A DNA stretch of 64,000 bases from Ectocarpus siliculosus (lineage: Eukaryota; Sar; Phaeophyceae; Ectocarpales; Ectocarpaceae), in assembly GCA_000310025.1 (NCBI GenBank), contig FN648551.1, positions 83,910 through 147,909 of the forward strand, in the 5' to 3' direction. The position numbers were made by a program, and so were the translations under genes. Shown here one piece after another: positions 30,341 through 57,395 of this stretch. Every line of letters starts with the position of its first letter. The first letter of the stretch is position 1. Under the pieces are notes generated by a model. It was not told the origin of the DNA. It saw only the letters and a program-made list of their open reading frames with translations, and made no database searches.

Positions 30341-32320
30341 ATCTGCCCCCTCTCCCTTGTCCGAGAGGTGCAAGAAGTGGATGCTGCAGCAGTAGGCGCA
30401 CTACACGTACACGTGTGCAGCTGTTACAAATCCAGCTGGCTCAGACTCTTCGCGCAGAAGCCTATGCGAGGACAAATGCAAAGTCGCCCCGGTGAGAGTT
30501 CCACCCCTCTCTCTTGGTTAAACTTTCCTCAGACCTCGGACACTCCTCGCTTGCCCAGTGTGATGGGCCTCCCCTTTGACTTCGTCCCATTTTTTTTTTC
30601 ACCTCAGTTGGCGGTGGAACAAATGCCGTTTCGGGAGAACTTGGGAGAACTGTTGAAAAATCTGAAATCCCAGCATCCACCATTCCTCCATCCATCGTTA
30701 CGTCTACTCCCACATATCGGGCGCGCTTCCACTACAGGCAGACAGCAGACAGCAGTGCGGCCCATAGGCATGCAGAAACGACACGAAGTCCGGGTATCAA
30801 AGCTGCGATAGGGGTGATGGGGCGTGGATCTCTCTCATTGACAACACCGACAGCGGAGCACATTCAGGCACACGAGTTTACAGCTGTACAGCGTGTACAG
30901 TCTCGTGTGCAGCAATCTGCAGTAGACTTGTTGTGGGTGGACAGGGGAGGGCCGTCAGTGGGATACACGAGAGAAAATAGGTGGGTTTCTTGTACAAGTG
31001 CAAGCCCGCCCGCTTTTACACCCGCGTCGCCAGGGAGCGAGGCACAAGGGGATCCCGGTGGCAAGACCCAAGGGATCTCCGCAGCTGCGGCCGTCCATGA
31101 AACACCCACGCCTACCAATCTTTAAGGTATCGTTCTTCCAGACTTATGGGCCGCACCGCGTTTCGTCCTTCCTGCAAGCGCGCCCGTTGCCACGCGCGCG
31201 GCTGCCCAGGACGCACGGAGCGGTCCACGTCGCAGGCCGTCCAACATGCACCGCGCCAGTTAGCACGCCCGCGACTGCAAGGGACGAGGACGACGAAAAA
31301 CTGCCCGCAGCAGCGCGCACTACGGGAATCTTGAAGTGGCGATCCTTCCGTGTGTCCCTGGGAGCATGCGCGACAACAGGGGCGCTTCGCGAAGGACGGC
31401 CCGGGGTGCGGCACCTAGGCACGTTTAGGAGAAACGGGCGGAACCTCGAACCCGCAACGTTGCTAATAGCCGTGGGCGTCTCGTGGACGGCCACAGAGGT
31501 GGATCCCACCCCCAGACACCACACCAGCGCATTCGGCCATAGAAGAAAATATTTGGTGTGGACCGCCCATCACTCCAATGCGGGAAGGAAGACAGGGAGA
31601 GATTCCCGCCGCAGGCTGCCGTTCGTGCAGGCCTTGAGGACGCGGAACGACCGCCGCGGTAGGCTGCCCTTCATACATATACCCACCTTTTCTCACATCC
31701 GCAGCTACCAGCAGCTGCCCTCGTCAAAAGCCGAGGCGCGCACTGCCAATTCTCCAACTTCGCACACCCTCTTCGATTCCCACTGGCCCGTTATCGCCGC
31801 CTGGCCTCGGATAATCAGTTCAGGTTCCGCAGCAGCAGGTACGACGATTTCCTTGCCCCCGTAACTTTGTCTCCGGTTACGGCCGTTGCTTCCGGTGAGC
31901 TCGGCGCGGCCGCCGTCCCTCCTTCCGGAGTAGGCCGCTGCGCCGGTCTCCGAGGCAACCGCGATAACCTTAGGCACAACCCCATCGACCGCAGCCACAA
32001 TCCTGGAGTGAAGGTTTGACATTGGCCGGTGAAGACAACGGTCGGCTCGGGTTCATGATCGGGTTTGCCAGGCCAGGGGTGATTGTGCGCCTTCTGTTTG
32101 GGTGGGATAGAGAGGGTGTGCTGGGGCGCACAAGTTGAAGAATCTTGACGCCGAGCACCAGAGCGACGTAGACGAGTACATGGGCTGGGCGGGGCCAATC
32201 ATGGCGATTGTACCTCAGGTGTGTGTTTTCTTGTTGTATTTGAACAGTTGCCTGTATCTGCTTCTTGGTCAGCTTTGTATCTTCGCGAGGTCGTTTTGTT
32301 TGGCAGGGGAACTGTGTTGA
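30341..32320. other. No confident gene; 5' flank of the amidase and repeats
   Basis: This holds the presumed promoter of the minus-strand amidase and then unassigned sequence. A minus-strand frame at 31705-32022 and a plus-strand frame at 32135-32220 (ending at a GTGTGT donor-like site) look mildly protein-like but match no family I know. An inverted repeat lies inside and is listed separately. Confidence 0.35.
31071..31507. repeat. Inverted-repeat pair of about 40 bp (possible MITE)
   Basis: Left arm 31071-31115 (gcggccgtccatgaaacacc) is an imperfect reverse complement of 31468-31507 (gtgggcgtctcgtggacggc). About 350 bp of GC-rich sequence lies between. The arms are compatible with a small non-autonomous DNA transposon. 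I could not see a convincing target-site duplication. Confidence 0.5.
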
Positions 32321-32771
32321 CGTTCCGGCGTTTCCCATCATTTGTTCGCCGCGCCTTTGCTTTGGTATTTTCGATTGCCAAGGTTGGCCGCGATGTATGC
32401 GTGAAGCTCATAAATCGATCTTGAGTACGTGGCCCGTCATCGCCCCATCCACTCACTCTCTGGACATTGGTTCGAATCCAGGATAGTGATGATGCCAAGG
32501 GAGGTTCATGTAGTGAAACCGTTAGTTGTGATGTTCCGACCAACCCGCTGCAAAGAGTACACGTTCGCTTCAATTGTTTCCTCGAGTGCTTCCCTGTTCA
32601 CTACAAGCACAATATTTTCAACTATTTGATGTCATCTTCCTGGGAGAGAGTGGATAGATGATGGCGGGCCGTGTAACCTTGTGAATATTGCGAGCTTCTC
32701 GTACATGTCACGGCTAATGTTGACAATGGGCAATGCGAAAATAATAGCGCGTCGAACAAGTATCGGAACTA
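32321..32771. mobile_element. Foldback element with terminal inverted repeats of about 135 bp
   Basis: Left arm 32321-32462 and right arm 32638-32771 are reverse complements at roughly 70 percent over most of their length. Shared blocks include ttgttcg.cgcgc, tattttcg.attgcc, gaagctc and ccactc.ctctc. The spacer of about 175 bp encodes nothing recognisable. This is the architecture of a MITE or foldback element. The divergence of the arms suggests an old insertion. Confidence 0.65.
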
Positions 32772-34560
32772 GATGCTCGGACCGTCCACATAGTCCTCCT
32801 TCATCACGAACGGTCTTGTGCCCAAAGCCGTTGGCCAACAGGTACATACGAGTAACTGTACGTGATTCACAACAACAACAAAATGCACGCCTTCAGGACA
32901 ATACTCCTGACTAGCCCCGCCCCTCCCGTGTACTCGTCCACACGGGTCTGGCGTTCGGCGTCAAGCATCTCCAGCCTGGGCACCGCTGCACACCCTCTCT
33001 GCCCCAGCCGGCGCCCAAAGGCAGACAATTCCTCCCGGCACTGGCAAGCTGATCCGTTGTCCCCACCGCACTAATTCAAACCTTCTTCGCTAGGTTTTCG
33101 GCCGCTGTCCCTGTGACATTTCCCCAGATTTTTACCGTGGCCTCGGAGGCTGACACAGAGGCCTCCTCCGGAGGGAGGGAGGGCGGGCGCGCAGGGCTCA
33201 CCGGAAACACCGGCAGCAGCCGCAGATGAAGTGGTGGGGGCGATGATGTTGTCCTTCTGCTGCTGTGGAAGTGCGGTGATGGTTCTACAACTCCGTGGGG
33301 GCGACAGCCGCGTCGGCATCGGTGCGGCGTGCCTCGTTGGGGGCGAGGAACACCACCGTCGACTATCATAATCGATGGTGGCTCGAATTCCAGTGGGAGA
33401 CCACGGCGGATGCTGGGGTCACCGCCGTCGTCACATCGGGCACACTTACATGAAGGGCCACCTTCGGCCGGAATGCTTCCTTTCTTCCCTTCCGGGCGAC
33501 CTTGCGTGACAACGGGAGAGCTTTAACGGAGGTGTGTCATCGCTTGATACTCATCATCGACACCCGTGGTCGTCTGGCGTCGCCCAGAGGGATTGAGTAG
33601 ACTTTCGGTTGTCTGGTCGGTTGCGTGGCACAACCAGTTTTTCGTGTGTTTTTTCGTTCAAGCGGGTAAACGTAGATGGTAGAATTGGTGTCTTTTAATT
33701 TGGGGTGTAACGGAACAGAAGAACCGGGCGTTCAACATAATCCTTGAACACGGGTGGGGTCCATGTTTTCCGAAAAGGGGCCGTCCCGCTCATGCAAACC
33801 TAGCTAGAGTGAAAGGTTTTAGGAAGAATGACGGAGAACCATCCCGACCCGTTTCCGACGGGTGCTAATTACTACTAATTAGGTCTGAATTGCTCGTATC
33901 CACGACGTTAAGTATGAACAATTTCCAACTTACATAGTGAGTGTGTAATTCAATGATCTTCGACGGGTTGTAGCGCGCCGTTTCAGGAAGCAGGCAGGGC
34001 TCTCCTAGAAGCCCAGAAGGACGCCGTGGGTTATGAGGCTCATTTTCTCGGCTACATACCTTTCGTGGCCACGGTGGGACTGTACGGCCTCAACGACTTT
34101 CGACCACCTTTCGTCCAAGTAATACAGTACACCTGAGCAGGGACCCCATCTACACTTTTTCCTCCCGACAGGGGGGCGTTTGGCAGCGTCTTGAAAATAT
34201 GCCCATAAACTGGCCTGTCCCACGCTTCCACGCTGCCAGGAAAGAAGCTTTCGGGTATGGAATGAAAAACCTGATGCAAACAACGACGGAGATATGACTG
34301 GCAAAATCTACTCGGGGCGGTGGTGACTTGTCAAACGCGATGGAACGAAGACTGAACTCTGGTCCACTTTCAGGACACGGGGATTCATGCTCGCAAGTGT
34401 TTTCCGGTTGGCGCGGGCCAAAAGAACCGGATATAGGTGTGCTCGGAAGAATTTCTTCGGCCTCAGGAGTTCCCGGGGCTTCGGAATCTGTGATGATTGA
34501 GTATCTTGTTAGATTGTAACGAGGTGGGCAACCCGCACACAATGCTGTCGAGTGACATAC
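32772..34560. other. No gene recognised
   Basis: Short open frames only. The Pro/Ser/His-rich frames near 33,076-33,370 come from composition. Sequence between 33,540 and 33,990 shows no repeat or motif I can name. Confidence 0.4.
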
Positions 34561-37276: not shown

Positions 37277-37516
37277 AGTGCCACAGGTGGACGTCCACCC
37301 CCCTTCCCCACAATGTCGGATGCCCTCGCCCTCCTGTGGAGGCCTTGACAAGGTCGAACACCTTGGAGAAGACAACCAAGGCCTTGAAATGGGAGAAATC
37401 GAGTTTTTTTTAGGCCTTGGTTGTCTTCTCCAAGGTGTTCGACCTTGGCAAGGCCTCCACAAGGGGGCGAGGGCATCCGACATTTTGGGGAAGGGGGGTC
37501 GACCTCCACCTGTGTA
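37277..37516. repeat. Near-perfect palindrome with arms of about 105 bp
   Basis: The arms 37277-37384 and about 37411-37516 are close to perfect reverse complements. Both contain the word gtcgaacaccttgga on one strand or the other. A loop of about 27 bp contains tgggagaaatcgag and a T-run. This can form a very long hairpin and is the form of a foldback transposon. Part of it is copied beyond the adjacent assembly gap. Confidence 0.85.
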
Positions 37517-37808: not shown

Positions 37809-37908
37809 NNNNNNNNNNNNNNNNNNNNNNNNNNNNNNNNNNNNNNNNNNNNNNNNNNNNNNNNNNNNNNNNNNNNNNNNNNNNNNNNNNNNNNNNNNNN
37901 NNNNNNNN
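37809..37908. other. Assembly gap of 100 Ns
   Basis: Exactly 100 N characters, a conventional placeholder for a gap of unknown size. The flanks are a microsatellite on the left and a copy of the palindrome arm on the right, both sequences that commonly break assemblies. Confidence 0.98.
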
Positions 37909-38041
37909 CCTTGAAATGGGAGAAATCGAGTTTTTTTTAGGCCTTGGTTGTCTTCTCCAACGTGTTCGACCTTGTCAAGGCCTCCACAAGGGGGCGAGGG
38001 CATCCGACATTTTGGGGAAGGGGGGTCGACCTCCACCTGTG
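37909..38041 (+). repeat. Second copy of the palindrome loop and right arm
   Basis: This matches 37382-37514 with about two substitutions, then diverges at tgtggctggg versus tgtacggcat. It is either a second foldback copy whose left half is lost in the gap or a local misassembly. Confidence 0.85.
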
Positions 38042-38099
38042 TGGCTGGGTTTCGAGGCGAGCGAAGTTCGGAATAGCTACTAAGCTGGAAGGCCTGGAG

Positions 38100-43367: not shown

Positions 43368-43632
43368 AAGGAAGGTTTGTTCGTCGAAGCAGATAGAATA
43401 AACTGGTGTTTATTTTGTAAGAGTCGAATTAGAATTTGGCTTCATTTTCTACCGGAAACCCAGGGTCACGGTGTTTGGAATTATTAGTCTGGTAGTTGGG
43501 GGTGTCATTCCGTGATCGAGTCCACGCAGGGGCTGTAGCAAAGTCGGGTAACGTGTGACAGCTACAGAGCGCGTGAAGCAACGGAAGGACAGCAGCAGCC
43601 GCCTAACGCAGTAGCGGCGGCAGTTTAGAAAA
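43368..43632 (+). repeat. Split direct repeat A1 (left terminus)
   Basis: It begins aaggaaggtttgttcgtcg and ends gcggcggcagtttagaaaa. It matches A2 at 49155-49420 nearly perfectly. A TATAAA-like box (tccatataaagg) follows at about 43,686-43,697, a plausible promoter position for transcription of the element. Confidence 0.93.
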
Positions 43633-43806
43633 GGGCGGGACGGGACACGGCGCAAGCATTGGGGAAGCGACCAGCACGCGACTCTCCATATAAAGGTGTG
43701 TACTCGTGTCCAACATCCATCGTGTCGGCCGTGTTCCTATTCGCGTCCCGCTACTCTTGTGACCTCACCGCTGCGTGCATTTAGCACGAGGGGGGAGGGT
43801 GCAGTA

Positions 43807-44133
43807 AGATAAGCGGCGGCAAGCCACCGCAGTCTCGCTCGCCGCGCCGCTCAGATAGGTCCCTTCCCAAACATGGGATGCGGTTCATCCCAACCGAGAC
43901 GTACTCTCGCTGAAGAAAAAAAATGCGGTTCGTCCCAACCGAGACGTACTCTCGCTGAAGAAAAAAAAATTAGATAAGCGGCGGCAAGCCACCGCAGTCT
44001 CGCTCGCCGCGCCGCTCAGATAGATCCCTTCCCAAACATGGGATGCGGTTCATCCCAACCGAGACGTACTCTCGCTGAAGAAAAAAATGCGGTTCGTCCC
44101 AACCGAGACGTACTCTTGCTGAAGAAAAAAAAA
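43807..44133. repeat. 165-bp tandem duplication in the element's 5' region
   Basis: Copies start at 43807 and 43972 (agataagcggcggcaagcca). Each contains a short internal duplication, atgcggttc.tcccaaccgagacgtactct.gctgaag plus an A-run, so that motif occurs four times. The GC-rich start can fold (agcggcgg with ccgcgccgct). Confidence 0.92.
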
Positions 44134-44694
44134 TTCAACGGCAAAAAGAAAGAGCGGGGCCTGTTGTATGGTCGCACGCTGACTTGTCGCGGTTGATAGC
44201 AGCCATTGTACTGCACGGGGTGGAGGAACCCTGCGGCATCGGACATAACCAATCGACCCGCGGCAGTAGGGCATGATGCTGTCACGAGTATGCACATGAG
44301 GCAGGTGCCTTGTTTTCTGTTTCCCCCGGCTTACTAGGGACTACTTGCCGGTACAATCTTGTCTGTGCCGCGCACAGAGGGGCATATAGCTGAAGGAATC
44401 GACGATAATATGCCCACTCACGTAAGCAATCGTCTCCACGGATGGTATCGACAAGTCCCCACTGATGGTATCGACAAGTCCCATGGCATACAAAGCGGCC
44501 GCATACGTAATCGGAAAGTGCATTCAACAGCATTCACGGGAACGGATAAAAGCAAAAACACATGCATGCGAGAGAAAGACTCAAGGAAAAAGACTGAAAA
44601 ACAAAGAAGACGAGAAAAAAAAACGAGACAGCGAACTACGTGCTGTATGCATAAGGAAAAAGAAGATGAGAAAAAAATAGGGGGGGAGATGAAA

Positions 44695-44773
44695 GTGACA
44701 CGCGAGGTTCGAACTCGCGAGGAACGTCAGGTAGCGGTCCATGTGAGTGCATCACGGTCTCGAGGGGCATCAC
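44695..44773 (-). ncRNA. tRNA-like sequence (weak)
   Basis: On the minus strand a perfect T-arm (GCGAG TTCGAAC CTCGC) is followed by GTGTCAC, and GTGATGC lies 79 nt upstream. These two 7-mers pair fully if G-U is allowed, like an acceptor stem. The T-loop matches a B-box. The D-arm and anticodon arm do not fold convincingly and the A-box is poor. I regard it as a possible degenerate tRNA or tRNA-derived element, not a functional tRNA. Confidence 0.25.
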
Positions 44774-44952
44774 GTCAAATTTATTGCCGTTGTGACACAA
44801 ACCTTCTATAAGAATACGTCACGTCCATCGACGATTAAGCGACCAAAAACGCCCGGACAGCAATTTGATGCATGCCAAAAACTCGTCAACCTGCCGTAGG
44901 ATTGTCTATGCGGAAGTGATTTCAATGAAAAAAAAAAAAACAAGGACACGCA

Positions 44953-46372
44953 CCAGCACGGGACGCGCCAATAGTGGAAGCACTCGTCCGTGCTGTTGGC
45001 GAGTGGAAGTTAACCGATCTCAACGCAACGAAACACGAAGTCATACATGTATCAGCACGGGATGCGCCAATGAGTGGAAGCACCCGCGCTGTTGGCGAGT
45101 AGAGTTAACCGAATTCAACGCAGCGGTAGAAAAATACCACAAATCATGCATCAGTACGGGACGCGCCAATGAGTGGAAGCACCCGTGCTGCATATGTGAT
45201 GTCAGCCTCAGCACGAGACGCGCCAATGAGTGGAAGCACTCGTGCTGTTGGTGAGTAGAGTTAACCGATCTCAAAAAGAAAGAACAAAACGTCGTACATG
45301 TATCAGCACGGGACGCGCCAATGAGTGGAAGCACCCGCGCTGTTGGCGAGTAGAGTTAACCGAATTCAACGCAGCGGTAGGAAATACCACAAATCATGCA
45401 TCAGTACGGTACGCGCCAATGAGTGGAAGCACCCGTGCTGCATATGTGATGTCAGCCTCAGCACGGGACGCGCCAACGAGTGGAAGCACTCGTGCTGTTG
45501 GCGAGTAGAGTTAACCGATCTCAAAAAGAAAGAACAAAACGCCGTACACGTATCAGCACGGGACGCGCCAATGAGTGGACGCACCCGTGCTGTTGGCGAG
45601 TAGAGTTAACCGAATTCAACGCATCGAAAACGAAGTCGTACACGTATCAGTACGGGACGCGCCAATGAGTGCTGTTGGCGAGTAGAGTTAACCGATCTCA
45701 AAAAGAAAGAACAAAACGCCGTACACGTATCAGCACGGGACGCGCCAATGAGTGGACGCACCCGTGCTGTTGGCGAGTAGAATTATCCGATCTCCACGCA
45801 TCGAAAACGAAGTCGTACACGTATCAGTACGGGACGCGCCAATGAGTGGAAGCACCCGTGCTGCATATGGTGTTGTCAGTTTCAGCAAGGGACGCGCCAA
45901 TGAGTGCTGTTGGCGAGTAGAGTTAACCGATCTCAAAAAGAAAGAACAAAAACGCCGTACACGTATCAGTACGGGACGCGCCAATGAGTGGACGCACCCG
46001 TGCTGTTGGCGAGTAGAATTAACCGATCTCCACGCATCGAAAACGAAGTCATACACGTATCAGTACGGGACGCGCCAATGAGTGGAAGCACCCGTGCTCA
46101 TATGTGTTGTCAGTTTCAGCAAGGGACGCGCCAATGAGTGGAAGCACCCGCGCTGCGTACAAGTATCAGTACGGGTCGCGCCAATGAGTGGAAGCACCCG
46201 TGCTGCATATGTGCTGTCAGTTTCAGCGAGGGACGCGCCAATGAGTGGAAGCACCCGCGCTGTTGGCAAGTGGAGTTCACCGTATCCAACGCATCGAAAA
46301 AAAAAAAAAAAACACGTATCAGCACGGGACGCGCCAATGAGTGGAAGCACCCGTGCCGATGGCGAACCGGGG
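44953..46372. repeat. Minisatellite of about 18 hairpin-forming units
   Basis: The core is cagcacgggacgcgccaatgagtggaagcacccgtgctgttggcgag, written in parts: cagcacggg, acg, cgccaa, tgagtggaagca, cccgtgct, g, ttggcg. It recurs about 18 times, with linkers of two main kinds giving spacings of roughly 58 and 95 bp. Each core contains two inverted repeats, AGCACGGG/CCCGTGCT and CGCCAA/TTGGCG, arranged alternately. The open frames across it repeat DAPMSGSTRA-like peptides and are by-products. It lies between the duplicated 5' region and the gag-like frames of the tyrosine-recombinase element. Confidence 0.93.
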
Positions 46373-46758
46373 TTCACCGAATCCAAGAAAATATATGTAT
46401 AAAAAAAAAAAAAAGAGAAACCATCGCTAGTGTTCCAAAGAGAGAAATATTCGGGATTGGTCGACGTCCGGTGACCGTAGCGTCAGCAGCAATAATCACT
46501 CCGTTCAATCCACAGGCGTCGAGAACGAACTAACGCGAGCTCGCGATATAACAACGCGTCGTTCTGGGCCCGACGAAAACCCACGCCAGATAGTTTCGCC
46601 CGAAGATAGGATTTGTAGACCATTCTAACTGCAGATCCAGGCGCGCGATCGACTACGCCCACGATGAAGAGGAAAAGAAGTGTTCCCGCAACGCCGCCCT
46701 GACGCTCGCCCGCCGCCTGCCGCCGGTCCGCTGCTTATACGACTCCAACCGCGACCAG

Positions 46759-47220
46759 ATGCCGACACGGGCCTCCACGCGGAGCGGCAGGGCAGCGGGT
46801 GGGCAAGCAGGGCGAGGTCGGGCGGCGACACCTTCGACACCACGCACGAGGAGGTCTACCGCGCGATCGGTGGCGAGCTCGACGGCTCGCCCCTCGACGC
46901 GCAGCGGATCACGTACTCCCGCGAGGCGTCGAGCGGTATCCTCCTCGCGAGCGCCAGGGACAGGCACCCGCGGCGACCCCCCCGCTGATGAGACTGAGCT
47001 CGCTTCTCTCCGCGGGCTGGTGGACGGCCTGAGGGAGGAGCTGCAGCGGAAGCGCGATGAGGCTGCCGGCGATCGCCAGCAGCTTCAAGCAACGATCGAC
47101 GACCTGATCGCCACCCAAGCAGCAGGACCTGGCCTTCCGGGGGGGGGTGCAACTGGTGGGCACAACCGCCCCACCATCGGCCTCTCGGGCCCCCGCTACA
47201 CCCAGCGCCGAGGCGGCTAA
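46759..47220 (+). CDS. Gag-like open frame with coiled coil (element body)
   Basis: An Arg/Ser/Thr-rich N-terminal half is followed by a strongly heptad-patterned segment (LASLRGLVDGLREELQRKRD). This is a common feature of the first open frame of DIRS-type elements, where it is thought to support multimerisation of the structural protein. The assignment rests on position inside the element and composition, not on a recognised domain. Confidence 0.45.
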   Translation: MPTRASTRSGRAAGGQAGRGRAATPSTPRTRRSTARSVASSTARPSTRSGSRTPARRRAVSSSRAPGTGTRGDPPADETELASLRGLVDGLREELQRKRDEAAGDRQQLQATIDDLIATQAAGPGLPGGGATGGHNRPTIGLSGPRYTQRRGG

Positions 47221-47247
47221 GGCTACGGCAAAGGATAGAGCGCGGAT

Positions 47248-47628
47248 ATGGGGGGACCTCCGCCGGGTAAAAGCGTGGCTCATCCTGGGGTGGCCTCCGG
47301 CAGTTTCAAAACTGTCGCAGATGGAGTGGCAATCCTTGCTTCGCAAAGGCGTCCTGGTGACAGAGAAAGTGGCGGCATCGCTCGACACGCTCGTGGTTAC
47401 TGCTTCGCCTTCAACTCGTCGTCCGGTTGCCATGATCGTAACTGCCCACACATCCACGCCCAGAACCCTTCCCACGCTAGGCGCGGAGCGTCCGAAACTC
47501 CGGCAACCGGCGCGCGCGGCGTTGGCCACGGCAACGGGGGAGGGCGCGGAGGAGAGGCGCGCGCCGCTGGCGAGGGCGGCGCGAGACCCAAGGCCGCTGG
47601 CTTCTTCACCCACGGGAAAGACAAATAG
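47248..47628 (+). CDS. Gag-like open frame with CCCH zinc-finger motif (element body)
   Basis: A C-x8-C-x4-C-x3-H motif (CFAFNSSSGCHDRNCPHIH) sits mid-protein, followed by a Gly/Ala/Arg-rich tail. A similar zinc-knuckle-like finger directly precedes the polymerase or recombinase region in many DIRS-like elements and is presumed to bind nucleic acid. It lies just upstream of the recombinase frame. Confidence 0.55.
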   Translation: MGGPPPGKSVAHPGVASGSFKTVADGVAILASQRRPGDRESGGIARHARGYCFAFNSSSGCHDRNCPHIHAQNPSHARRGASETPATGARGVGHGNGGGRGGEARAAGEGGARPKAAGFFTHGKDK

Positions 47629-47721
47629 GGGTGCGGGCTCTCCCGCGTAGCGGGGGGGCCTACCTCGGATGGCAGCGCACCTGCGGCTAAATCGAACGGC
47701 AGCACGCCGGTCTACACGAGG

Positions 47722-48876
47722 TTGGCTCCAGGGCTATCAGCAGGTTCAGGACCCGGGACAGGCAGGACGGGACTTTGTTACCGACGTCTTGGCATGCAGC
47801 TCGTCGAGCACTCAGTTGCGTCTTCGTCTAGAAGGACTTACACGTCAGGCTTCAACTCTTGGTGCACGTTTCGCAGGCTGACGGAGAAGCCCAAGTTCCT
47901 AGGGCAACGTGCCGGGGACCTTCATGTGTGGGAGTTGATAGACTTCGTAGCCTGGTGTTTCGAGTCTGAGGGTAATCTAGCGAGTACAATATCCGGAAAA
48001 CTCACGGCTGTACAACATTTTCATAGGCTGGAAGCTTCTGTCGAGCTAGACTTGTCGTCTCCGATGTTGAAATGTGCGCTAAGGGGGATTGCGAGGAACC
48101 ACGTGGCTGTGGGGACGATACGCCGTGTGCGCCTGCCTGTGTCTTGGCGTATGCTGCTGGACGGGGAAAGCGCAAGCCAGAACTGGGGGGAAGGGGGCAG
48201 AGTGATGTGGCTGTGTCTGTGCTTGTCCTATCTCTTTATCACACGGTCTGATGAGGTGTTCGCGAATGACGCGGGCAGGGTGCATGAGGCACACTGTCTT
48301 ACGAGGGCGGACGTAGCATTGTTTGCTGGCGAGATGCAATTAGTCTTTAGTCCCTATCGTAGAGCAGACCGCGTCGAAATGAGGTTTAGAGGGCACAAGG
48401 CCGATCAAGAGCAGAAAGGAAACATACGGGTTCGTACGCGAGACGAAGTCACCGGACCGCAGTCAGGTGTGAGAGCACGCGGCGGCGCGGTGGCTCTTGT
48501 GGTGGAGCTGTTATCGTGTCATGCGACGTTGCCTGACTCCGCACCGTTGGCTTCGTACCGTAGTGGAAGAGCAGTGAGAGTAGTGAGGTATACTGCTGCC
48601 CTCCGTGCAGTCAGAGAAGTGGTAGCGAAGTCGGGGCGTAACCCCCAGGAGTACGCGTTGCACTCGTTGCGAATTGGAGGCGCGACGGCTCTTGCATCGG
48701 GCGGGGACATCGCAGAACGAGTGATTCAGAGAGAAGGGAAGTGGAGGTCGGATGCATACAAGCCGTACGCGCGAAACAATGTAGAGGATTCGCGGCGAGT
48801 GTCACGGAAACTTACAGACGGCAGTAGGATCGTATCGAGACAGCCGGGGGAGGGGACCGTCTGGGGGAACGGATAG
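47722..48876 (+). CDS. Tyrosine recombinase of the DIRS-like element
   Basis: A 384-codon open frame. The N-terminal part looks like a core-binding (SAM-like) domain (SSSRRTYTSGFNSWCTF). The catalytic domain shows the box-I Arg in the FITRSDEVF context, the box-II H-x-x-R in LHSLRIGGATALASGG, and the nucleophile Tyr in SDAYKPYAR. The order and spacing fit DIRS/Ngaro recombinases more than phage integrases. It would cut and join the circular DNA intermediate into the genome. The frame looks intact. B1 follows about 40 bp after the stop codon. Confidence 0.9.
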   Translation: MAPGLSAGSGPGTGRTGLCYRRLGMQLVEHSVASSSRRTYTSGFNSWCTFRRLTEKPKFLGQRAGDLHVWELIDFVAWCFESEGNLASTISGKLTAVQHFHRLEASVELDLSSPMLKCALRGIARNHVAVGTIRRVRLPVSWRMLLDGESASQNWGEGGRVMWLCLCLSYLFITRSDEVFANDAGRVHEAHCLTRADVALFAGEMQLVFSPYRRADRVEMRFRGHKADQEQKGNIRVRTRDEVTGPQSGVRARGGAVALVVELLSCHATLPDSAPLASYRSGRAVRVVRYTAALRAVREVVAKSGRNPQEYALHSLRIGGATALASGGDIAERVIQREGKWRSDAYKPYARNNVEDSRRVSRKLTDGSRIVSRQPGEGTVWGNG

Positions 48877-48917
48877 TTGACTTATTCGGTGGTCGTCCAG
48901 AAACTGACCTCGATGTG

Positions 48918-49155
48918 GGTGTTGTAGAATGGTGTGTACCATTTGAGGACTTGGTCAGTTTTGGGACTCCTGCGTTTGCAGTCGTAGTCCCCCGGCTAGT
49001 ATTTGTGGGGAGAGAGATGGATTTGTAAGAGTTGACGCCGGCCTTTGCAGCTAACGCGGCCGGAGAGACGATGAGCGTTTCGTGCGTCTCTCTCCCCAAC
49101 ACGTAGCCTAGAAACCGAAGAAATAATGAAGCAATTCGAAAGAAAACAAAATAAA
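48918..49155 (+). repeat. Split direct repeat B1 (internal)
   Basis: It begins ggtgttgtagaatggtgtg and ends gaaagaaaacaaaataaa, directly abutting A2. It looks identical to B2 at 49489-49726. Confidence 0.93.
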
Positions 49156-49420
49156 AGGAAGGTTTGTTCGTCGAAGCAGATAGAATAAACTGGTGTTTAT
49201 TTTGTAAGAGTCGAATTAGAATTTGGCTTCATTTTCTACCGGAAACCCAGGGTCACGGTGTTTGGAATTATTAGTCTGGTAGTTGGGGGTGTCATTCCGT
49301 GATCGAGTCCACGCAGGGGCTGTAGCAAAGTCGGGGTAACGTGTGACAGCTACAGAGCGCGTGAAGCAACGGAAGGACAGCAGCAGCCGCCTAACGCAGT
49401 AGCGGCGGCAGTTTAGAAAA
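49155..49420 (+). repeat. Split direct repeat A2 (internal)
   Basis: Partner of A1 at 43368-43632, differing by a single base-run difference that I could see. It abuts B1 on its left and is separated from B2 by 68 bp of unique sequence. Confidence 0.93.
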
Positions 49421-49488
49421 TCCCGCCCTCCCATCCCTTTTCTTTCGAAGGTGGGGGCATAAGTTCGGGAATATTCGGTATCTAGTCA

Positions 49489-49726
49489 GGTGTTGTAGAA
49501 TGGTGTGTACCATTTGAGGACTTGGTCAGTTTTGGGACTCCTGCGTTTGCAGTCGTAGTCCCCCGGCTAGTATTTGTGGGGAGAGAGATGGATTTGTAAG
49601 AGTTGACGCCGGCCTTTGCAGCTAACGCGGCCGGAGAGACGATGAGCGTTTCGTGCGTCTCTCTCCCCAACACGTAGCCTAGAAACCGAAGAAATAATGA
49701 AGCAATTCGAAAGAAAACAAAATAAA
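49489..49726 (+). repeat. Split direct repeat B2 (right terminus)
   Basis: Second copy of B, ending aaacaaaataaa before the unique flank cgagccgatctatatg. It marks the right end of the element. Confidence 0.92.
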
Positions 49727-57072: not shown

Positions 57073-57157
57073 TGGTATCCTGTGGGGGGTGTGGTATCTT
57101 ATGTAGCCCGGGTGATAAGTGCAGCTCGCAGGGGCACCTAAGGGGGTGTGATAAACC

Positions 57158-57395
57158 AGGGGGGGTGATAGCACGTCCGAACACCCACAGAGTGTGTTTG
57201 GGGGTGTGATAAATGAGGGTGTGTGATAAAAGGGGGGTGTGATAGCCAGTCTGAACATCCGCAAGGTGTGTTTGAGGGGGTGATAAATGAGGGCGTGTGA
57301 TAAAAAGGGGGTGTGATAGCAACTCCGAACACCCACAGGGTGTGTGTTTGGGGGGGTGATAAAAAGGGGGGGCGATAAAAAGGGGGGGTGATAAC
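57158..57395. repeat. G/T-rich minisatellite of about 64 bp
   Basis: Three imperfect copies of gggtgtgatagc...tccgaacacccacaggg followed by tgtgtttgggggtgtgataaa. The associated His/Thr/Pro-rich minus-strand open frames are repeat artefacts. Confidence 0.85.

Follow-up and report, generated by a model that had tools for sequence, protein, structure and literature searches.

Tyrosine recombinase (YR) retroelements have been proposed to derive from Cryptons, and the replication cycle of those with split repeats is still a model. Ngaro elements carry reverse transcriptase (RT) and RNase H between gag and the YR, and isolated AB repeats are described for the Ngaro elements of Cafeteria (PMC8547959). 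In Trypanosoma cruzi, SIRE joins A2 and B2 of VIPER through a private segment of ~30 bp (PMC6681497, section 6). Fifteen Ngaro and five PAT-like families are listed for Ectocarpus (PMC12477816). The element described here lies at positions 43368-49726 of a stretch of 64,000 nucleotides of Ectocarpus siliculosus DNA (the window; 54% GC, with one 100-N gap) and is composed of A1, a 5.3-kb body, B1, A2, a 68-nt spacer and B2. Its features, together with those of two related units nearby, are summarized in Table 1.

Table 1. Features of the element and of the two body-less units in the window.
Feature	Position	Strand	Basis or remark
A1, 5' repeat, 265 nt	43368..43632	+	equals A2 except for one G
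Tandem duplication, two 165-bp copies, 98%	43807..44135 (copies 43807-43971 / 43972-44135)	+	self-comparison
Minisatellite, 18 units, CGCCAA core	about 44951..46370	+	stem possible, not beyond shuffles
Gag-like stretch	46664..47628	+	protein-like runs, successively in three frames; frame reading by eye
C-x8-C-x4-C-x3-H motif at end of gag-like stretch	47401..47457	+	direct reading
Tyrosine recombinase, 360 aa from first ATG	47794..48876	+	frame open from 47629; profile match
B1, 238 nt	48918..49155	+	identical to B2
A2, 266 nt	49155..49420	+	one G more than A1
Spacer, 68 nt, A2 to B2	49421..49488	+	first 37 nt kept in 58-kb unit
TTCGAAAGAAAA box, inverted, in spacer	49438..49449	-	complementary to B end; motif search, inverted-repeat search
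B2, 238 nt	49489..49726	+	identical to B1
TTCGAAAGAAAA box near end of B2	49706..49717 (B1 copy 49135-49146)	+	motif search
Last 10 nt of element	49717..49726	+	complementary to A positions 42-51 (43409-43418, 49196-49205)
Body-less A-spacer-B unit (55-kb)	55558-55021	-	83-89% (about 86%) to main unit over aligned parts; A start diverged
Body-less A-spacer-B unit (58-kb)	58616-57878	-	strongly diverged, three anchors kept

B1 and A2 abut, with base 49155 common to both, and the internal repeats lie 3' of the recombinase, as in Ngaro and VIPER (PMC4157794, section 7). The ends follow the order A1-body-B1-A2-B2 of the split-direct-repeat class, the PAT/Ngaro layout that the preliminary description had assigned to them with correct coordinates, and the 68-nt spacer between A2 and B2 comes in addition. 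All the long repeats are direct (503 nt; matches of 238, 181 and 87 nt, each at 100%) and the inverted matches are only 10-26 nt, so that the inverted terminal repeats and internal complementary regions of DIRS1-like elements are absent. The near-identity of A1 with A2 and of B1 with B2, also claimed earlier, holds to the base: there is no substitution over 503 sites and a single indel, the extra G in A2, which places the divergence below ~0.6% (95% upper bound). With end repeats so alike, the copy is either recent, as the preliminary description held, or recently homogenised; gene conversion between the repeats could give a false look of youth.

The recombinase frame runs from stop to stop over 415 codons (47629-48873; first ATG 47794), a length reached in none of 500 Markov simulations of 46600-48917, the largest of which gave 412. 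Single-sequence searches with the protein in Pfam, PHROGs, NCBIfam and PDB chains returned no match, nor did tblastn against phages; across the 64-kb window tblastn gave no other match below E=2.4. Modelled on its own with AlphaFold, the recombinase has a mean pLDDT of 30, which is uninformative. In plasmids, tblastn found one integrase with a weak match (E=0.8), which aligns pairwise with the N-terminal domain of the recombinase and has a weak second piece over the HSLR box. Eight bacterial tyrosine recombinases of this integrase's family were then built into a profile, which matches the frame at E=1.7e-10, as against 0.62 for the best of 500 shuffles and 4.8 for the next best of the window ORFs (628 with 60 aa or more); hhalign of the frame against the same family gives a probability of 93.2 (E=2.9e-7). 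Fourteen columns are invariant in the joint alignment of the nine sequences, including R151, E154, K202, H290, R293 and Y325. These six form the set expected of a working recombinase, and the frame possesses the catalytic residues R, K, H, R and Y. The profile and alignment show that the recombinase domain is genuine.

RT, RNase H and methyltransferase were not recognised among 80 body ORFs of at least 45 aa (Pfam, E up to 0.1) or in stop-masked translations of the non-repeat body in its three forward frames (E up to 10), and the RT catalytic box [YFLMIV]xDD[hydrophobic] is absent from all six frames of the body. The Pfam scans covered the reverse frames as ORFs only and were run without an RT positive control, and since the same Pfam missed the recombinase, which is real, a Pfam miss alone is no proof of the absence of RT. 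The spacing provides an argument independent of the scans: only 165 nt lie between the stop of the gag-like stretch (47626-47628) and the recombinase ATG, and B1 follows the recombinase stop after only 41 nt, which leaves no room for RT beside the recombinase. For an RT/RNase H ORF, one study sets a requirement of more than 600 aa (PMC6681497). The rest of the body is taken up by the 330-bp duplication, ~0.8 kb in which no domain is recognised, and the 1.4-kb minisatellite. Lacking the RT and RNase H of the split-direct-repeat class, the element is filed as a derivative rather than as a full member. The methyltransferase domain of PAT and DIRS elements is likewise missing among the Pfam matches; it could have gone together with RT.

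For the body, the preliminary description had reported a whole recombinase frame, no recognisable polymerase, a duplicated 5' region and a hairpin minisatellite, the last two in the place of the polymerase. The open frame and the profile match bear out the first, and neither an intact nor a broken polymerase is recognised by any of the approaches above. The duplication is likewise present in two copies, and the minisatellite is a real array of CGCCAA-core units; its hairpin is weaker, since three units folded as RNA give z=-0.76, -1.71 and -1.85 against shuffles. The placement does not hold, as both features are located 5' of the gag-like stretch and not between gag and the YR, where Ngaro elements carry their RT/RNase H. 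A TATA-like TATAAAG occurs at about 43690, downstream of A1, and may be chance.

The gag-like stretch is ended by a single TAG directly before the recombinase frame. No protein family of Pfam matches it, and the label gag denotes its position and the CCCH motif only. A stretch split over three frames, set against end repeats of similar total length with no substitution, suggests that the moving copy may already have been defective before insertion. The argument presupposes genuine frame breaks in an originally whole gag; sequencing error could mimic such breaks, and either this or gene conversion would weaken the case for a defective copy.

Two body-less A-spacer-B units were found in the window by self-comparison and with a profile built from the three units, whose E-values, the units being its own source, are not independent evidence. 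For the strongly diverged 58-kb unit, support independent of the profile comes from three local alignments, each better than all 500 shuffles: A over its first 50 nt, the spacer over its first 37 nt and B over its last 37 nt. The A start, the start of the spacer and the B end are accordingly termed anchors. Units consisting of ends only have precedent in the anatomy of Cafeteria Ngaro and SIRE. We infer that those near the element are either remnants left by the loss of A1-body-B1 through recombination, or short elements mobilised in trans. These units, the A2-B2 spacer and the kept motifs linking their ends are all absent from the preliminary description.

The TTCGAAAGAAAA box is the first of these motifs. 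Allowing at most one mismatch, it occurs at six sites in 64 kb, all of them within A/B units, and none of 100 shuffles reaches six. The sites are in B1, B2 and the two other B ends, and, inverted, in two spacers, that of the main unit and that of the 58-kb unit. Spacer and B end thereby form a perfect inverted match of 12 bp; in the main unit none is longer, though it shares the top length (1 of 300 shuffles reaches 12), and in the 58-kb unit all others are shorter (3 of 300). In the 55-kb unit the corresponding stretch is altered on both sides, from C-G to G-T, a changed pair that would pair as G-U in RNA; the longest perfect inverted repeat of that unit lies elsewhere and is of usual length (9 nt; 89 of 300 shuffles). 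Folding of the spacer as an RNA hairpin was no better than shuffles in the three units (z -0.03, -0.55 and -0.76), and the same was found for a hairpin from the B palindrome (z -0.57).

The second motif is the complementarity between the last 10 nt of B and positions 42-51 of A, which is matched in the first 60 nt by 2 of 20,000 shuffles of A, and anywhere by 12 of 20,000. It amounts to 8 nt in the 58-kb unit, where the corresponding two bases are gone from both sides, and is not visible in the 55-kb unit. The shortening in step is suggestive and no proof, the sample being a small one of two units of common descent. The region of A around 42-51 can form a hairpin (z -4.15), the arms of which are found again in the 58-kb unit. 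Between the B end and the A start, a gapped inverted repeat scored 12, not above random pairs, and complementarity over 8 nt between the sequences that follow A1 and A2 is present in one copy only. The end motifs could serve as recombinase sites, or as contacts that join the ends of RNA or cDNA.

From the repeat layout, the recombinase domain, the lack of a recognisable RT and the two body-less AB units, we infer with moderate confidence that this is a recent copy of an element of the Ngaro/PAT/VIPER plan that has kept its recombinase and ends, is without RT/RNase H and a whole gag, and was moved in trans by the RT of a partner. An autonomous relative would supply gag and RT. The transcript would then be copied, with the B1-A2 junction as template for the end sequences missing from the transcript, to give a circle; a comparable use of internal regions for circle formation is part of the DIRS1-like model (PMC3266345). 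Through their complementarity to A, the final 10 nt of B may unite the ends or let the 3' end of the RNA prime. The B-A junction of the circle would be joined to the target by the element's own or the partner's recombinase. Insertion would occur without target duplication, as is stated for the class (PMC4157794). No partner RT is found by Pfam among the 135 window ORFs scanned, which gave amidase, dihydrolipoamide acyltransferase-type, transketolase-type, ankyrin and L36 domains; the window gave no match in scans for Rfam families or tRNAs. In viral contigs and bacterial and archaeal genomes, the related-locus search found no relatives of the recombinase or repeats, and no further copy of the body appeared. 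Two recombinase motif patterns and the B pattern gave no relative in viral contigs, nor did the spacer pattern there or in bacterial and archaeal genomes; the weakly matching plasmid integrase has no relatives in viral contigs.

The lack of RT may instead be a one-off, an autonomous Ngaro/PAT-type copy having lost RT/RNase H by internal deletion after inserting here. Most of the 2241 YR elements in a fungal survey are short, truncated or incomplete (PMC3783388), and no second RT-less copy of the element is known; we nevertheless regard this course as unlikely, because the absence of substitutions over 503 sites leaves little time for a deletion and several breaks in the gag-like frame, and because the deletion must also have spared the recombinase frame.

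Quite improbable, in our judgement, is a DNA element driven by its recombinase and no longer involving RNA, resembling a Crypton with long split repeats, in which an A1-body-B1 circle is excised at B-A sites and reinserted. Such excision would be expected to leave body-less A-spacer-B units, no whole enzyme frame other than that of the recombinase is recognised, and the ends carry repeated paired boxes. Body-less units, however, are also yielded by RT-bearing Ngaro (PMC8547959), Cryptons are described without long direct repeats (PMC3212892), and cut-and-paste alone does not account for A1 being the same as A2 and B1 the same as B2, as copying or gene conversion could do. We hold it similarly doubtful that the lineage has dropped reverse transcription and now spreads, or leaves and re-enters, as a DNA circle made by the recombinase, with the paired motifs of A start, spacer and B end as its recombination or end-pairing code. 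If true, this would invert the path by which YR retroelements are proposed to have arisen from Cryptons. A tandem pair without any split-repeat unit, in which a separate short A-spacer-B has inserted at the end of a long A-body-B element, gains from A-spacer-B standing alone twice in the window and hence being able to form its own unit, but is very improbable, since A1 equals A2 and B1 equals B2 against 83-89% to the next unit, which needs recent common copying or conversion, and since the same order is the published plan of Ngaro, PAT and VIPER (PMC4157794, section 7; PMC6681497, section 6).

Movement in trans by a partner's RT is the preferred reading. If there are other copies with the RT-less plan, they would form a class of non-autonomous elements in which the joining enzyme persists and the copying enzyme has been lost, and would show that RT and gag can act in trans in split-repeat YR retroelements. 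The end segments kept in the 58-kb unit (A start, spacer start and B end) mark sites for tests of circle formation and insertion.

Among known systems, Cryptons resemble the element in that the recombinase is the only enzyme recognised, and differ in having no long direct repeats, with short ones (4-6 bp) described in some groups (PMC3212892), as compared to the 503 nt found here. The element thus falls outside the Crypton pattern of a recombinase alone without long direct repeats. The Ngaro elements of Cafeteria burkhardae share the order A1-[ORFs]-B1A2B2, the recombinase as the last ORF before the internal repeats, a length of about 6 kb and isolated AB units (PMC8547959). In contrast to the element, where none is recognised, their RT/RNase H is ORF2 between gag and the recombinase, and the Cafeteria accounts, in the portions cited, mention no counterpart of the 68-nt A2-B2 spacer (PMC8547959). 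VIPER and SIRE of Trypanosoma cruzi show the arrangement A1 ... B1-A2-B2, and the A2-segment-B2 of SIRE resembles the A-spacer-B units (PMC6681497, section 6); in VIPER the RT/RNase H overlaps the recombinase ORF (PMC12278014), whereas here the recombinase stop and B1 are 41 nt apart. With RT located before the recombinase in Ngaro and overlapping it in VIPER, both sides of the recombinase are closed to RT in the element. PAT-like elements, including the green-algal TOC, likewise have split direct repeats, and differ in carrying RT and a methyltransferase domain (PMC4157794, section 7), neither of which is recognised here. The element is a well-preserved example of what is probably an ordinary kind of split-repeat YR derivative; its interest is raised by the complete recombinase frame, by recent movement and by the motifs linking the ends. 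TOC1 of Chlamydomonas is an RT-less derivative of TOC with internal tandem repeats, and is possibly the nearest analogue of the element.

The 8 nt directly 3' of A1 and of A2, the near-identical end repeats of the main element (a tyrosine-recombinase element with split direct repeats and no recognised reverse transcriptase), are exact reverse complements of each other. The spacer between A2 and B2 opens with four C runs, which are read as four G runs on the opposite strand; they are common to the main element and the 58-kb unit, a body-less and strongly diverged A-spacer-B unit, and the differences between the two units fall outside the runs. The start of the spacer is possibly a quadruplex-type motif.

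Self-comparison of the window also revealed a large inverted repeat, and repeated sequence on either side of a gap of Ns, with a direct match of 134 nt (98.5%) and an inverted match of 103 nt (94%). A TC dinucleotide run adjoins these flanks, and the repetition around the gap is possibly an assembly artefact. Among the tandem repeats, the 74-bp repeat sits 0.5 kb past the 58-kb unit.

Positions of the sequence features in the window
Feature	Positions	Detail
8 nt after A1	43633-43640	GGGCGGGA
8 nt after A2	49421-49428	TCCCGCCC
Spacer C runs (candidate quadruplex-type motif)	49421-49437	
Satellite-like tandem repeat, window edge	1-322	66-bp period, 92% matches
Short-unit repeats	1996-2177	GGTTG / GGGTTGGGTA
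Inverted repeat	31825-32409 / 32692-33270	~600 nt arms, 66.6% identity
N gap	37809-37908	100 N
Gap flanks	37282-37515, 37909-38042	
TC run	next to the gap flanks	
Tandem repeat	57141-57393	74-bp unit, GGGGGTGTGATAAAA-rich
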